Source: a gamma proteobacterium NOR5-3 (GTDB lineage: Bacteria; Pseudomonadota; Gammaproteobacteria; Pseudomonadales; Halieaceae). From it: DNA of 64,000 nt. Below the pieces are notes generated by a model. The model saw only the letters and a list, made by a program, of their open reading frames with translations, was not told the origin of the DNA and did no database searches. The stretch's first letter is position 1, and each line of letters begins with the position of its first letter. Below, piece after piece: positions 2,860 through 16,850 of this stretch. The translations under genes and the position numbers were made by a program. The stretch is taken from the NCBI GenBank assembly GCA_000158155.1, contig DS999407.1, positions 505,087 to 569,086 on the forward strand, written 5' to 3'.

Positions 2860-3012
2860 CCGCGTCGCAAAAGTCCGCACACCCGCTGAGCACCATGCCG
2901 CCAACAACGCTGGAGGCTCGGCCATGCGGCGTGCTCCGCAACCGGGGCAAAATCCGCGGTTCTTGCGGGAAAACGCTACGCTTCGATCTAAATGGCGTTT
3001 GTCGCAGCGTGT
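2860..3012. mobile_element. Mosaic scar of two IS91-type transposase fragments in opposite orientation
   Basis: Two decayed pieces match the transposase at 12613-14115. On the minus strand, about 2890-3010, a translation with FSRKNRGFCPGCGARRMAE matches the zinc-binding segment FSCKKRGFCPSCGARRMAE of the full copy. On the plus strand, about 2866-2895, KVRTPAEHHA matches EVRTPAERHT from near the transposase C-terminus. The pieces abut head to head, so this is a rearranged remnant and not one truncated copy. The rest of the 394-base gap (2770-3163) shows no gene. Nothing here would be functional. Confidence 0.75.
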
Positions 3013-10982: not shown

Positions 10983-11164
10983 TGTTATGCCTCCATGCCT
11001 CTGCCCCCTCCCGCCACGCTCGCCGTGCCGCCGCTGCAAATAGGTGCTCTACAACATTATGACCGCCCAGCGGCAATTATCCCCCATGCAAATGTGCCCG
11101 CTCGACGTGCGACGTGGGCTGAGCGGTTGCGGCGAGATCATCCAGATTTGTGTTGGCACAGGAA

Positions 11165-11605
11165 AGATAAAGGACCTTTCGGCAGTAGACATCCTCGCTT
11201 ACTTTGCCGACTGGGATGCGCAACCGCTCACGCCATGCGGTTTTCAAGGGGTTCCTCGCTGGCTATGGGCCTGAGCCCTTCCCGGCGCAAAGAAGGAATG
11301 CAGCCAAGGGGACTCTCTCGACGCTTTGCGTCGACTCACCTTATCCGAGGCGGCGTTCTAGTCGGTTGACACCAGCAATGACCGAGTCGCTGCTTCCTGT
11401 TCTTTCTGGCGCAGTTGAGTCGGGATCCGGTCGAGAGCCGGTCCCGCAAGCGAAGCGAGTGCTTTGGTCATGATCCTGACGGATCCGCCACAGAGACTGC
11501 AGATCTCGACACGGTAGAGTGATGCGAGGCGTTATGAGCGGGTGCACTGGAACATGTCGGTGCTGAAAACCCGCTTTAGCCGGTGCGCCCGGGTCATTGC
11601 GATCG
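11165..11605 (-). mobile_element. Degenerate 3' end of an IS91-type element (partial copy)
   Basis: This stretch repeats, with many substitutions and a deletion of roughly 95 bases, the region 12348-12823 that carries the terminal non-coding part and the transposase C-terminal codons of the fuller element. Shared landmarks are AGATAAAGGACCTTTCGG at the outer end (11165 versus 12348), GCCATGCGGTTTTCAA, CCACA-AGACTGCAGA and GGGTCATTGCG. No reading frame survives. It has the same orientation as the fuller copy and ends about 20 bases before the tRNA-Lys fragment. The interval 10983-11164 should hold the sigma-gene promoter; I see nothing else in it. Confidence 0.75.
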
Positions 11606-11623
11606 ATACAAAGTAAGAAAAAG

Positions 11624-11668
11624 TGGTGGGCCGTGCTGGGTTCGAACCAGCGACCAATTGGTTAAAAG
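11624..11668 (-). repeat. 45-nt copy of the 3' part of tRNA-Lys: possible attachment-site remnant
   Basis: These bases are identical to 16775-16819, the 3' 45 nt of tRNA-Lys from the anticodon loop through the encoded CCA, in the same orientation. The similarity stops abruptly after the anticodon segment, and no 5' half of a tRNA is present. Integration into the 3' end of a tRNA gene leaves such a duplicate at the far end of an inserted element. An inserted segment of about 5.1 kb would run from here to the intact tRNA. No integrase is visible inside, so any island has decayed. Confidence 0.75.
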
Positions 11669-11805
11669 TCGGACAGCCATTTTCCAGGTGATTGATTTAA
11701 TTTAACTTTTGTCGGTGACGCCCGTTGCAAGTTGCACCGAAATGCACAACAAAGCAGGACTGTTCCCGGCAAAAGTCCGGCAGTGGCGATCAATTGGAAT
11801 TCTAC

Positions 11806-12010
11806 TAACTGTCCTCTTCCGAGAAGGCTTTCTCCAGAAAGGTGGCGTAGCCGAGGATGGGTATAGCCTCCGCGACCGCTGCGCGGCGCAGGCCCAACGG
11901 ATTGTCGGTGTCAGAATCGCCGATCAGAAGCTGTAGTCAAGTATCACGTAGTAGCTACGGCGGGTATAGCGCCCGGGGCGTACACGCGGCATTCACGTCT
12001 CCAGGGGGCT
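11806..12010 (-). other. Possible decayed coding fragments, including a receptor-like C-terminus
   Basis: On the minus strand the codons ending at the TGA at 11924-11926 read RYTRRSYYVILDYSF, which resembles the last beta-strand of a TonB-dependent receptor. Overlapping it in another frame, about 43 codons down to a TAG at 11806-11808 (NPLGLRRAAVAEAIPILGY and so on) have GC-rich third positions like real coding sequence, but no start codon and no family I recognise. Both are too short to be genes and are probably remnants. The surrounding 11669-12017 otherwise shows nothing. Confidence 0.25.
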
Positions 12011-12017
12011 GTCCGCC

Positions 12018-12340
12018 TCAGGACAGCGGTTCCAGTCTCATCCGCACGGCGATCGTGGGACCCGGATCCACGGACGTGCGCGTCTCATGAATCCTATCCT
12101 CAAAGCGGTAGCGCACGCGATAGCCGCTGAGCTGCTCGCGTTCCTCGATCTCGTAGCTCGTGGAACACACCTCCTCCGTCACGTAGTAGCTGTCGTCGCG
12201 ACGCCGGCGCTGACCAATGTCGTTGCCGATGGAGGCGCCGAGAAGCGCGCCCGCACCGGTAATGAGATCTCGCCGGCTCGAATTGTCACCGAGGACGGAT
12301 CCCGCGGCCGCGCCGACCACACCGCCAAGGGGTATAGGGT
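12018..12340 (-). pseudogene. 5'-truncated glycine-zipper (17-kDa surface-antigen type) gene
   Basis: The surviving C-terminal portion reads GGVVGAAAGSVLGD, then GAGALLGASIGNDIG, a glycine-zipper pair, followed by the domain EEVCSTSYEIEEREQLSGY and dPGPTIAVRMRLEPLS typical of small outer-membrane proteins with a 17-kDa-antigen-like fold. There is no signal peptide or lipobox. The frame is lost upstream near 12340, exactly where the IS91-type terminus begins (12348), so the element probably removed the 5' part. The usual full length would be 150-180 residues; about 105 remain. Confidence 0.65.
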
Positions 12341-12347
12341 ATAGGAC

Positions 12348-14185
12348 AGATAAAGGACCTTTCGGGATTAGACATCCTCGCTGACTGTGCCGACTGGGAC
12401 TACAGACCGGTCAAAGTTTCCATCTGTTGACCCGTAAATCCAGTTCGCGGCGTGCGGCATGTTATTCCTATCCGGTCAATCCTGACGGAGCGCGCGCAAC
12501 CGCTCACGCCATGCGGTTTTCAATGGCTTCCTTGCTGGCTATGGGACGAAGTCCTTCCCGGCGAAAAGCAGCAATGTACCCCAGGGCACCTTCTCTCGAC
12601 GCTTGCGCCGATTCACCTTGTCCCAGGCGGCGCTCTGGTCGGCGGCACCAGCAGTGGCTGGGTCGGCGTTTCCCACTCTTTCTGGCGCACGTGAGTCAGG
12701 ATCTGGTCGATGACGTCCTGGTCCTCGATACAAGCGATGACTCTGGCGGATCCGCCACAAAGACTGCAGACCTCGATGTCGATGTTGAAAACTCGCTTTA
12801 GGCGTTGAGCCCAGGTCATTGCGGTATGACGCTCTGCGGGTGTGCGGACTTCTGCGTTGGAGGTAGACTTGATGCCTTTCCCACGCCTTGCTGGTGTGAC
12901 CAGCCCACGCCAGCGGTGGTTCGGCGCGAGTACGCCGTGGTAGCGGGTGAGGTTGACCCTCGGCTTCGGCACCAGTGCCGCCAATCGCGCTATAAAATCC
13001 ACTGGTTCGAAGGCCACCTGCGTAGTCCCATCCCGGTACGGTGTCTTCAGGGTGTAGACCACCTTGCCTGTGGAACTCAGCGAAAGTCGGGGAACTGCTA
13101 CGGCCGGGCGGGAAATGTACCGACACAGGCGCTCACGCTTGTCTTTCTGATTGCCCTCACAGCTGACCCCGGCGTGCAGAGAGAAGCCATTGGCCTTGGC
13201 CACCCGCTCCAGGCGAGGATCAGGCCGGTCCAGCGGACGGATGGTACGGATCATGAACGCTTTACGTCCCTGCTGTGGGCCAACGGCAATGCGGTAGGAG
13301 ATGGAACTGCCCAGGATCTGTGGCATCGCATCCGTGTCTTCTGCGGGTTCCTGTTCCAGCCAGGCGCTCTCGGTGTCCTGTTCCAGCAAGCCCTGGCGCT
13401 CGAGGCAGCGGCCGACGCGCTGGCTGATCAGTTGAACCAACTCCTCCAACTCGGCTTTGTCTGGTGCCTTGACGCGTTGAAATCGGGGTGGTCGATTGTC
13501 GCGATACACATAGACGCCATCCAAGAACAAAATATGAAAGTGAATGTTGAGGTTAAGGGCGCTGCCGAAGCGCTGGATTAGCGTCACGGCCCCAGTGGCG
13601 CCATCCTCGAGCGGTAATCCGATCTTGTGGATCAAGTGGGTGGAGATAGCCCGGTAAACGACGCCCAGCACCTTGCCCATAGCCTGGGGGTGGGCCGCAA
13701 ACAGGTAGCGCAGAGGAAAGGGGAAGCTGATGACCCACTGGCGAAGAGGGACATCGGGAAACACTTCATCGGCCAGCAGGGCGGCGGTCTCGGCCATGCG
13801 GCGGGCGCCACAACTGGGGCAGAACCCGCGTTTCTTGCAGGAAAAAGCCACCAGCCGCTCGAAGTGGCATTTGTCGCAGCGCACCCGGAGAAAGCCGTGC
13901 TCGAGGCGACCGCACTTTAGGTAAGCCTCAAATTCCCGGTGGACATGTGCAGGTAGGGATTTACCCTGCTGTGCCAGTTGCTCTACCAGGGCCGGATAAT
14001 GCGCCGCGATGAGCTGATAGAGAAGTGTCTGCTCGGGCCGATGGCGTTCGTAGAGGGTGCTGGCAAAGCTCTGCCGACCCGGTAACTGCATCGCGGTTGC
14101 GCCCTGGATCGCCATCGTGTGGAACGGTCCAGAGTGGAGTCGCGACCTGCGAGACGCCACGTCCGAAGCGGTCGTCGGCTTCGGC
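12348..14185 (-). mobile_element. IS91-type insertion element, nearly complete
   Basis: The element comprises the transposase gene plus about 265 bases of terminal sequence on its 3' side (12348-12612). The left limit is set by the sequence shared with 11165-11605 and by the breakpoint in the glycine-zipper gene. The right limit is set by the point where PQQ-dehydrogenase homology resumes, about 14185, and is uncertain by some tens of bases. IS91 elements have no terminal inverted repeats or target duplication, and move by rolling-circle-like replication, which can mobilise adjacent DNA. The two flanks are unrelated gene fragments, consistent with insertion and rearrangement here. Confidence 0.75.
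12613..14115 (-). CDS. IS91-family transposase (Y2/HUH type)
   Basis: Single-strand HUH nuclease that drives replicative transposition. The N-terminal zinc-binding domain has CDKCHFERLVAFSCKKRGFC and PSCGARRMAE. The catalytic HUH motif is NIHFHILFLDGVY, and the tyrosine region is LCRYISRPAVAVPRL. The C-terminal part includes FIARLAALVPKPRVNLTRYHG and a final CSLCGG cysteine pair. With ATG 14115 it is 500 residues, the family size; ATG 14091 is a good alternative, and the frame remains open to 14262 without homology. No internal stop or frameshift is visible, so the enzyme may be active. Fragments of relatives lie at 2860-3012 and 11165-11605. Confidence 0.9.
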   Translation of the reverse strand: MAIQGATAMQLPGRQSFASTLYERHRPEQTLLYQLIAAHYPALVEQLAQQGKSLPAHVHREFEAYLKCGRLEHGFLRVRCDKCHFERLVAFSCKKRGFCPSCGARRMAETAALLADEVFPDVPLRQWVISFPFPLRYLFAAHPQAMGKVLGVVYRAISTHLIHKIGLPLEDGATGAVTLIQRFGSALNLNIHFHILFLDGVYVYRDNRPPRFQRVKAPDKAELEELVQLISQRVGRCLERQGLLEQDTESAWLEQEPAEDTDAMPQILGSSISYRIAVGPQQGRKAFMIRTIRPLDRPDPRLERVAKANGFSLHAGVSCEGNQKDKRERLCRYISRPAVAVPRLSLSSTGKVVYTLKTPYRDGTTQVAFEPVDFIARLAALVPKPRVNLTRYHGVLAPNHRWRGLVTPARRGKGIKSTSNAEVRTPAERHTAMTWAQRLKRVFNIDIEVCSLCGGSARVIACIEDQDVIDQILTHVRQKEWETPTQPLLVPPTRAPPGTR

Positions 14186-15309
14186 CGCTCGACAACGATC
14201 TCAGCTATTACGGTTCCTCGGTTGTGGCCGTGCGCGCCTCGACTGGCGAGGTGGTGTGGCATTTCAATACAGTGATCAATGATTATTGGGATTTCGATAT
14301 CCCTTCACAGCCGGTGATAGCGGACATCGAGATTGACGGCGAGTGGGTGCCAGTGGTGATTCAGAGTACGAAGATGGGGTTTGTCTTTGTGCTTCACAGA
14401 GACACCGGCGAACCCGTTGTGGATGTCACCTATCGGCCTGTGCCTCGTCACGGACCGCTCGAGGCATTGCTCTCGCCGGTGCAGCCCTTTCCGCCGGAGG
14501 CGTTCCAGGCCTCTCGATCCTACGAGGCTGGTGGTTCGCTTTTCGGGTTCTGTGACGATTTAGAGAACGAGAGCGTGATCGGTCCCGTCTACACGCCGAT
14601 CACAGAAGACTGGACGATTGGGCTGCCGAGCAATATGGGGGCGACCAACTGGGGTGGGGTCGCAGTTGACCCGGAACGGGGTCTGATTGCGGTCAGAACC
14701 AGCAGCGTGCCGTTTCGTACCAAACTGATCGAGCGGGCGGATGCCGCCGATCTGCTAGCGATTCTTGATGCCGAAGCTGCAACATCGCAAGCCAGAACCC
14801 AGGCTCAAAAGGCATTCTTTGAACGTTACAACCTGCCCCCGGGAACCGAAGTAGCCCGCCAGTCCGGGACAGACTATCTGATGGCCCGCCATGTGATGCT
14901 GGATCCGGTGATTGGGTTGCCCTGCGCAGGCGTGCCGCTTGGTGAGCTGATGATGATCGATATTGACGATGAACAGGTTCTCTGGCGGCGGCCACATGGC
15001 ACGGCCCGTGATGCGGGTTTGCCGTTTAACGTCGGCATGCCCGGTGTGGGCGGTTCTCTGATCACGTCGAGTGGCCTGGTGTTTGTTGGTGGCATTGCCG
15101 AAAGTGCGTTTCGTGCCTATGACGTCACAACCGGTGAAGAACTCTGGCATCACCGCCTGCCAAACCCGGCCAATGCCACGCCAATGAGTTATACGGTCAG
15201 TCTGCCTGAGGGTCAGAAACCCTTTGTCGTGGTTGCCGCCGGTGGTGATGAGCGCGGTGGCATTGGCGGCGTGGGCGACTATCTTGTGGCGTTCTCTATT
15301 GCGCGATGA
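14185..15309 (+). pseudogene. PQQ-dependent (glucose-type) dehydrogenase, 5' half lost
   Basis: Quinoprotein dehydrogenases oxidise sugars or alcohols in the periplasm with pyrroloquinoline quinone and pass electrons to the respiratory chain. The visible part holds beta-propeller segments: YYGSSVVAVRASTGEVVWHF, NDYWDFDIPSQPVIADI, NMGATNWGGVAVDPERGL, LMMIDIDDEQVLWRRPHGT and the C-terminal FVVVAAGGDERGG. Such proteins have roughly 600-800 residues; only about 374 remain, with no start codon or signal peptide. The upstream junction coincides with the IS91-type element. The stop (15307-15309) directly abuts the stop of the convergent redoxin gene. It is probably non-functional. Confidence 0.85.
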
Positions 15310-16050
15310 TTATGCAAAGCTGCTTTTGATGGCCGAGGCGACGTAGGCAGGGTCAGAACGTTGCGGGTAGTTAGCCGATTGATCCTTCCAGACCACCGTG
15401 CCAGCCTGATCGATGAGCAATGAAGTCGGCACAGGCAGACCCGGTCGCCCGGGCATCTTAAAGTTGTTGATGTTCTGGTTTTTGACGCCGAATAAATTGA
15501 TCACTTTCAGTTCCGGGTCGGCCAGCATGGTTGCTTTGAGCCCATGCAGGCTGCGACCGGCTCGAATCTCGCCGGGTTTGTCCGTTGAGACAGTGACGAC
15601 CTCAATACCGGCCTCTTCCAGCGTCGGTCTCAGTTCTTCCCATCGCCGTAACTCGGCGACACAGTAGGGTCACCAGTGACCGCGGAAAAACTTGAGCAGT
15701 ACACGCTTGCCTTCGAGAGTTGAGCTGTTAAAGGTGCTGTCATCAGCGGCGATAGCCGTAAAGGCCGGGATCTTGTCGCCGACGCTGATCGACTCGCCGC
15801 CCATACGCTGGCGCCCGGTGGAGATCAGATAAACCAGCAACGCGCCGATGCCGATAGCGGTCGGTGCGAACGGATCGGCAGGATTCTGCAGGTAAGCCAA
15901 TACGCCCAGCACCAGCCCTGTTATCCACAATCCCCGATACAGTCCGAATGACGCCGGTATATTCACTTTCATGGCACGCCAGAACCACCGGATTGCGGAG
16001 CCCAGCAGCAGTACGAGAGCCATCAGCCCCAGATAGGGGATTTCCGGCAT
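15310..16050 (-). CDS. Membrane-anchored redoxin with in-frame UGA: candidate selenoprotein
   Basis: Thioredoxin-fold redoxin of the AhpC/TSA or TlpA-like group. ATG 16050 has GGAGG eight bases upstream. Residues 1-80 hold three likely membrane segments (about 6-24, 37-54 and 62-78), then GDKIPAFTAIAADD and LLKFFRGHW. The next codon is TGA (15670-15672), followed in frame by PYCVAELRRW, TVSTDKPGEIR, GLKATMLAD, LPVPTSLLIDQAGTVVW and a TAA at 15310. Relatives read WCPYC, so UGA replaces the first redox cysteine; as selenocysteine this would be U127 with C130 in a 246-residue protein. Read as a stop, the product lacks its catalytic site. No selA, selB or selC lies in the window. The alternative is a nonsense mutation in a decaying island. 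It is convergent with the PQQ-dehydrogenase remnant. Confidence 0.78.
15642..15664 (-). promoter_or_regulatory. SECIS-like hairpin immediately after the in-frame UGA
   Basis: In the mRNA, five nucleotides after the UGA, a nine-base-pair stem forms between CUGUCGCCG and CGGCGAUGG (two G-U pairs), closing a five-base loop AGUUA. The loop carries G and U at its start, as bacterial SECIS elements do. The distance from the UGA to the loop is about 14 nucleotides, slightly shorter than I recall for characterised examples. The loop is supplied by a UUA leucine codon, unusual among the GC-rich codons of this genome. Seen: pairing and loop; inferred: SelB binding. Confidence 0.55.
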
Positions 16051-16101
16051 GGTCAGCGCCTCCAGCAAATTTGATTACAGAATAACATGATTGTGGCGAG
16101 C

Positions 16102-16479
16102 TTACGGTGTGACTCGAATGATCTGATCCTGACCGAGCGGAGTCTGGATCATCATCACACCCTGCTGACCAAACCGTTTGACATAGAGTGTCGCCAACGA
16201 CTGCGCTTTGGGGATATCAGCTTTGTTTATCAGCAGAGTAACAACGCGGGACCTTTCTGCGGCACCCTGGTAGTAGCCGATGGTCTCGCTGACCGTGAAC
16301 CCGTCGAACGCGGCGGCGATATCCTGGTTCTGAAAATGCTGCCATTCCTGATAAGACACGGCGCCCCCGCCAGGTTTCGAAAGACCAAAAAACATCTGCA
16401 GCTGATGAGTGATGGGGGGCGTCGCCGCCTGGGTGATAGCGGTGATGGTCAGCAGGCAGGTCAGGAGCAAAATGCGCAT
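16102..16479 (-). CDS. Exported DUF3574 family protein
   Basis: A small protein of 125 residues starting at ATG 16479, with a signal peptide (MRILLLTCLLTITAITQA). The core has QLQMFFGLSKPGG, VSYQEWQHFQNQDIAAAFD, GFTVSETIGYY and a VVTLLINKAD strand, matching the conserved pattern of DUF3574 (FGLS, W..F, F.DGfTV, then a gR..E-like segment). No function is known for the family. It lies about 50 bases upstream of the redoxin gene on the same strand and could be co-transcribed. It is inside the putative island bounded by the tRNA-Lys repeat. Confidence 0.7.
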   Translation of the reverse strand: MRILLLTCLLTITAITQAATPPITHQLQMFFGLSKPGGGAVSYQEWQHFQNQDIAAAFDGFTVSETIGYYQGAAERSRVVTLLINKADIPKAQSLATLYVKRFGQQGVMMIQTPLGQDQIIRVTP

Positions 16480-16658
16480 CAGGATTCTCCGTCAGAGGGT
16501 TAACAGGGTCTGGGACAACCGGGTACGGGCAGCGTACACGGTTCGGTCTGGTGATCCAGGTCATGGTATGCCTTCTGTGGTGCGACTACTATAAAACAGT
16601 ACTCGATGCGCCACTCGCCCCATGTCTGACAGGCAACTGAGTCGGCATTATCAACCGA

Positions 16659-16749
16659 GTTTAGTGAAAACCGGTGTATCCCCCGTTAACTGGGTAGAGC
16701 CGAGCCGTTTAGTGAAAACCGGTGTATCCCCCGTTAACTGGGTAGAGCC
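16659..16749. repeat. Two tandem copies of a 43-base unit (period 48)
   Basis: GTTTAGTGAAAACCGGTGTA begins each copy and GGGTAGAGCC ends it; copies lie at 16659-16701 and 16707-16749 and are identical. The five bases between them (GAGCC) nearly repeat the end of the unit. There are only two copies, with no spacer variation, so this is not a CRISPR array. It sits 25 bases from the 3' end of tRNA-Lys, at the putative island end. The rest of the 295-base gap 16480-16774 shows nothing I recognise. Confidence 0.85.
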
Positions 16750-16774
16750 AGCAATTGATAGAAAAAGGGAAAAA

Positions 16775-16819
16775 TGGTGGGCCGTGCTGGGTTCGAACCA
16801 GCGACCAATTGGTTAAAAG
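16775..16819 (-). repeat. tRNA-Lys 3' segment matching the copy at 11624 (putative attachment site)
   Basis: The 45 bases from the anticodon loop to the encoded CCA are identical and in the same orientation as 11624-11668. The intact tRNA retains its 5' half here, as expected when an element re-creates the tRNA end on integration. The interval between the two copies is the candidate island. Confidence 0.75.
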
Positions 16820-16850
16820 CCAACTGCTCTACCAACTGAGCTAACGGCCC
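16775..16850 (-). tRNA. tRNA-Lys (anticodon UUU), CCA encoded
   Basis: The minus strand folds as a cloverleaf of 76 nt. The acceptor stem GGGCCGU pairs with ACGGCCC, followed by A and CCA. The D-loop has AGCTCAGTTGGTAGAGC, the anticodon loop CTTTTAA gives UUU, and the T arm has GGTTCGAACCC. It closely resembles E. coli tRNA-Lys. The 3' 45 nt are duplicated at 11624-11668. A T-rich stretch follows the 3' end. Confidence 0.97.

Follow-up and report, generated by a model that had tools for sequence, protein, structure and literature searches.

A decayed tRNA-Lys-bounded element in gamma proteobacterium NOR5-3 and its intact relatives in Halieaceae

Introduction

Islander islands are recognised by an intact tRNA gene and a displaced 3' fragment of that gene, which lie 2-200 kb apart, in the same orientation and with the fragment on the 3' side (PMC4383910). 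Cis-mobilizable elements (CIMEs), known together with tandem accretion, have lost their integration genes and retain both att ends (PMC5704250).

Here we analysed a 64,000-nucleotide stretch of the gamma proteobacterium NOR5-3 genome (the window; all coordinates are its own unless a contig is named). As in Islander islands, the window has the tRNA/fragment arrangement and a repeat that reaches the anticodon loop. However, it lacks an integrase, and Islander's integrase filter would reject the interval. The likeness to a CIME lies in the lost integration genes, the retained att ends and a decayed neighbour with which it probably forms a tandem. Genes for integration and for transfer are both missing, while attL and attR are both present, the left one with a full arm and the right one with 25 nt. 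The window differs from a CIME in this truncated integrase-side end, in that no conjugative parent was seen, and in that excision is only a candidate property.

Results

The interval is delimited by a tRNA-Lys gene and a displaced copy of its 3' half:

16775..16850, minus strand: intact tRNA-Lys(TTT), the integration target presumably restored by the element (attL side); ARAGORN, Rfam RF00005 75 bits
11624..11668, minus strand: displaced tRNA-Lys 3' fragment, the att core, spanning anticodon loop to 3' end; matches the tRNA at 45/45 positions

ARAGORN and Rfam both identified a single tRNA-Lys(TTT), whose 3' end points left. A repeat search returned a 50-nt direct repeat (11619-11668 versus 16770-16819) with 98% identity (49/50), in agreement with the first-pass annotation of this DNA, which had reported 45 identical bases of the tRNA-Lys 3' half in the same orientation at the two places. 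By chance, 45 identical bases within 5 kb are expected about 3e-22 times. The fragment was found once genome-wide; the search also returned the tRNA gene itself and, on a different contig, a second, weaker tRNA match. It has the orientation of the tRNA and lies on the 3' side of the gene, 5.1 kb downstream of the tRNA 3' end, and thus fits what is required of a tRNA-integrated island, namely a tRNA with its cognate 3' fragment in matching orientation on the 3' side. The GC content of the interval showed no difference and does not mark an island.

Very probably, an integrative element once recombined site-specifically into the 3' half of tRNA-Lys(TTT), and 11624-16774 is what remains of it. The steps are inferred from the anatomy of the locus and from intact relatives. 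A tyrosine integrase would have recombined a tRNA-identical attP with the tRNA-Lys gene, so that the tRNA was rebuilt from the element's own copy and its original 3' half ended up 5.1 kb away. The element would belong to a Halieaceae family whose members have both ends in common, together with a 364-aa integrase directed towards the tRNA. Insertion sequences (IS) would have inserted and the integrase would have been deleted, in no implied order, leaving ISL3-type IS ends that now reach up to a 25-nt spacer. An ISCR-like element would have truncated both of its neighbours, a glycine-zipper gene and a PQQ gene, and a further element, more decayed than this one, would probably adjoin the remnant in tandem on the left.

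The source genome (4.2 Mb, rated 100% complete) was compared with relatives from the Halieaceae. Adjoining the fragment, we found a conserved sequence:

11669..11796, unstranded: conserved element end (att arm); ten-copy alignment, 86% identity over 167 nt in G019, match in Chromatocurvus halotolerans

C. halotolerans DSM 23344 (G006), a member of another genus, carries its own tRNA-Lys fragment followed by the sequence of the window (95.7% identity over 1.9 kb). The identity begins exactly at the fragment, and the DNA to its left is unrelated. The 1.9-kb match takes in the glycine zipper and the ISCR-like element, with few mismatches before 12337. In total, the element end, made up of the 45-nt att core and about 130 nt beyond it, was present in ten copies in nine Halieaceae genomes, the window's included (window, G006, G160, G064, G019, G066 with two copies, G069, G063 and G154). 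Decayed versions occurred in G035, G018 and G001. The same end thus recurs in other hosts with different flanks, as expected of mobile DNA.

The relatives also supplied the missing enzyme. Their tyrosine integrase (PF00589) has 364 aa and reads toward the tRNA, with its stop codon 22-34 bp from tRNA-Lys. Its closest version (91-100% identical) occurs in six genera (g1, g4, g11, g14, g17 and g27), and all nine of the nine loci adjoin tRNA-Lys(TTT) or a displaced copy of it; the displaced copy rather than the intact gene is the neighbour in Haliea salexigens (G029). More distant members in GTDB genomes lie next to Arg, Met, Pro, Thr and other tRNA genes in most loci with room. Complete 35-kb elements between tRNA-Lys and its fragment were found in Haliea alexandrii LZ-16-2 (G063) and in G069. 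The first-pass annotation had read the repeat as the footprint of site-specific integration at a tRNA gene. Two observations bear this out: the shared end of the relatives starts exactly at the tRNA-Lys fragment, and intact elements place a tyrosine integrase beside tRNA-Lys while the window keeps both ends.

At the tRNA-proximal side, two features lie where relatives carry the integrase and its spacer to the tRNA:

16750..16774, plus strand: retained spacer between the integrase stop codon and the tRNA 3' end (attL-side element end); 25/25 identical to C. halotolerans
16639..16749, unstranded: two end pieces of an ISL3-type IS, directly beside the spacer at the expected integrase position; they match the 3' end of an IS with a DDE_Tnp_ISL3 transposase

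Longer copies of this IS occur elsewhere in the source genome and in G002. The 43-nt tandem repeats had been a candidate for integrase arm sites and were dropped once identified as ISL3-type IS ends. No PF00589 integrase was found within 11624-16850 or nearby, none of the nine PF00589 genes of the genome lies close, and a tblastn search for integrase remnants in the interval gave chance matches only. That the integrase appeared to be gone, as first annotated, is confirmed; intact relatives do carry it. The first-pass annotation had suggested looking for it elsewhere: it lies beside tRNA-Lys in relatives, and the source genome has no homologue of the 364-aa protein at E 1e-60. An intact, active island requires a tyrosine integrase inside it; the interval has none and is therefore filed as a remnant rather than as an intact island. 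As a tRNA-Lys-bounded decayed genomic island, it is supported by the relatives' shared end, their intact integrases and the retention of both ends.

To the left of the fragment we observed two further features:

11599..11623, plus strand: probable spacer at the integrase side of a further element to the left, in a tandem array; similar to that of the G035 element
11160..11601, unstranded: ISCR-like remnant at the place where the integrase of the second element is expected; 76-91% identical to the copy at 12337-14182

The fragment at 11624-11668 is probably not the edge of the ancestral chromosome, and the DNA to its left would be the end of another decayed island. The simplest reading is a tandem with a second decayed element; we hold it with moderate confidence, on the strength of a likeness of only 25 nt. 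G035 has sequence like the DNA left of the fragment directly after tRNA-Lys, over these 25 nt only. The stretch scored 12 against the integrase-side spacer of G035, a score reached by none of 20,000 random 25-mers, and other tRNA-Lys sites scored at most 5.5. The same architecture exists in H. salexigens, where a 41-kb island that has a different integrase follows the tRNA, and a tRNA-Lys fragment and the 364-aa integrase come next, in this order.

Alternatively, a single island could lie against original chromosome at 11624 and the 25-nt likeness could be due to chance, a variant compatible with the integration outlined above that we consider possible though rather unlikely. It is favoured by the shortness of the likeness, by the lack of any integrase remnant left of the fragment and by the lack of a further tRNA-Lys fragment or arm on source contig C4 from position 300 kb up to the window. 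On the other hand, neither random 25-mers nor any other tRNA-Lys flank reached the score, and the left side is a variable zone rather than conserved chromosome. In comparison with the complete genome of G002 (same genus), the colinear chromosome stops at about 495,060 of contig C4. The variable zone beside tRNA-Lys measures about 27 kb, and the interval is its tRNA-proximal 5.1 kb. A strict empty site, in which tRNA-Lys runs directly into the DNA left of 11624 with no element between, had been proposed as a check. No such strain was found with the window's left genes and the left flank of the G063 element as queries, at sites that held contig breaks and accessory DNA.

Within the left part of the window, 1507-2769 (an acetamidase/formamidase gene, 97% identical protein) and 1-1297 are shared with G002, one block being inverted, at 83-90% DNA identity versus about 67-80% for flanking core DNA. 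Further small fragments of the ISCR-like element lie at 2866-3009, and the region of 2.9-11.2 kb (hydrolases, GntP permease, TonB receptor, FecR, sigma factor) is bracketed by ISCR-like remnants.

Inside the interval the following cargo was annotated:

12018..12320, minus strand: glycine-zipper protein remnant; PF05433, 100% identical in C. halotolerans
12337..14182, minus strand: ISCR/IS91-like element with Y2 transposase (ORF 12613-14262); PF04986 and PF14319 (Y2_Tnp), 98% identical copy in the C. halotolerans element
14183..15309, plus strand: PQQ-dependent dehydrogenase, C-terminal part only; TIGR03074 positions 430-782 of 783, PF01011
15313..16068, minus strand: AhpC/TSA-type redoxin with in-frame TGA (FRGHW-TGA-PYC); PF00578 over the whole domain if the TGA is read through
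16102..16479, minus strand: DUF3574 protein, accessory cargo; PF12098

The transposase scored 580 bits against the NCBIfam model of ISCR clade Ia, below the cut-off of 925, and we therefore call the element ISCR-like only. It apparently cut the N-terminus of the glycine-zipper gene, and the N-terminal half of the PQQ dehydrogenase is missing at its edge. Because C. halotolerans shares the insertion beside the glycine-zipper gene, this insertion predates the divergence of the two copies. In the redoxin, the in-frame TGA replaces the first active-site residue. No SelB scored over the cut-off in the source genome (best score 169.7 versus 242.25), and the two best places were frames of 409-432 aa, the size of EF-Tu. 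With SelB missing from a genome that is rated 100% complete, the redoxin is probably a broken gene rather than the candidate selenoprotein first listed. The remaining contents listed at first stood, with IS91 now read as IS91/ISCR-like and the PQQ dehydrogenase as a C-terminal part, alongside the glycine zipper and DUF3574. DUF3574 has one weak homologue (32%, E 9e-6) among the other 139 Halieaceae genomes. None of the relatives' elements that we examined contained the PQQ, redoxin or DUF3574 gene, and part of the interior could for this reason have arrived later.

One-ended ISCR/IS91 transposition might instead have brought in the fragment and its neighbouring DNA from a different genome, in which case this lineage would never have undergone integration at tRNA-Lys. 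An ISCR-like copy does lie inside the interval, another remnant ends at 11601 beside the fragment, and C. halotolerans has the fragment, the glycine zipper and the ISCR-like element together. This course is, however, very improbable: by coincidence the fragment would have had to come down 3' of tRNA-Lys and correctly oriented, at a place where the 25 nt next to the tRNA are those of the same element too. Local duplication, by which replication slippage or IS-mediated copying would have placed a tRNA 3' piece 5 kb away in unrelated accessory DNA, is hardly credible: IS remnants do lie near both tRNA-Lys copies, but this case, named at the outset as part of what would overturn an island, is contradicted by the same 130-nt arm after the fragment in nine genomes (ten-copy alignment), by the C. 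halotolerans identity that starts at the fragment and by the integrases at the tRNA end in relatives.

Discussion

Integration at tRNA-Lys followed by decay is thus the reading that we carry forward. By its anatomy, the interval is well supported as a CIME-like remnant of a tRNA-integrated element, a kind that is itself known and ordinary. The remnant nevertheless points to an element family that appears not to have been described before, whose ends are defined, whose integrase has a known target and whose intact hosts can be named. The titles and abstracts of the open-licence papers searched, a set outside the subscription literature, held no description of this Halieaceae family.

The intact elements of G063, G069 and C. 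halotolerans have the att core, the 130-nt arm and the type of integrase-side spacer in common with the window. They differ from it in carrying the 364-aa integrase and a second recombinase (PF12834/PF12835), whereas the window has no recombinase and other cargo. In G063 and G069 the 35-kb elements combine the second recombinase with a catabolic gene cluster (acyl-CoA dehydrogenase, thiolase, MMPL transporter, DUF1302 and DUF1329 genes) that the window lacks. The family's integrase is about 51% identical to tyrosine recombinases that serve as integrases in temperate phages, for example Pseudomonas phage phiPSA1; unlike in such phages, the cargo sampled from the 35-kb elements showed no recognisable phage gene.

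At the integrase end of the tRNA-Lys element, 2.5 kb (L066, L059, L251 and L256) are 100% identical in four genomes of three genera, which we take as a mark of recent transfer. Near-identical recombinase modules in at least three genera point to recent gene-cluster transfer among marine Halieaceae. A more speculative proposal, which we consider unlikely although the sequences would allow it, has two parts. An incoming family integrase might excise or move the remnant in trans, so that the tRNA-Lys site would gather cargo by successive accretion, and the family would be an undescribed, two-recombinase element, neither phage-like nor conjugative, that spreads catabolic gene clusters among Halieaceae genera.

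Two further loci deserve mention. The tRNA-Lys element of G001 (L050, 2635-5931) has three tandem overlapping tyrosine recombinase genes, resembling the recombinase-in-trio arrangement. In H. salexigens, 46 kb of contig C7 (about 167,600-213,901; L058, L059 and L284) appear to be tandem tRNA-Lys islands, and the same stretch is listed as a viral contig in IMG/VR, with the same integrase (95% to the query) at an equal distance to the contig end.
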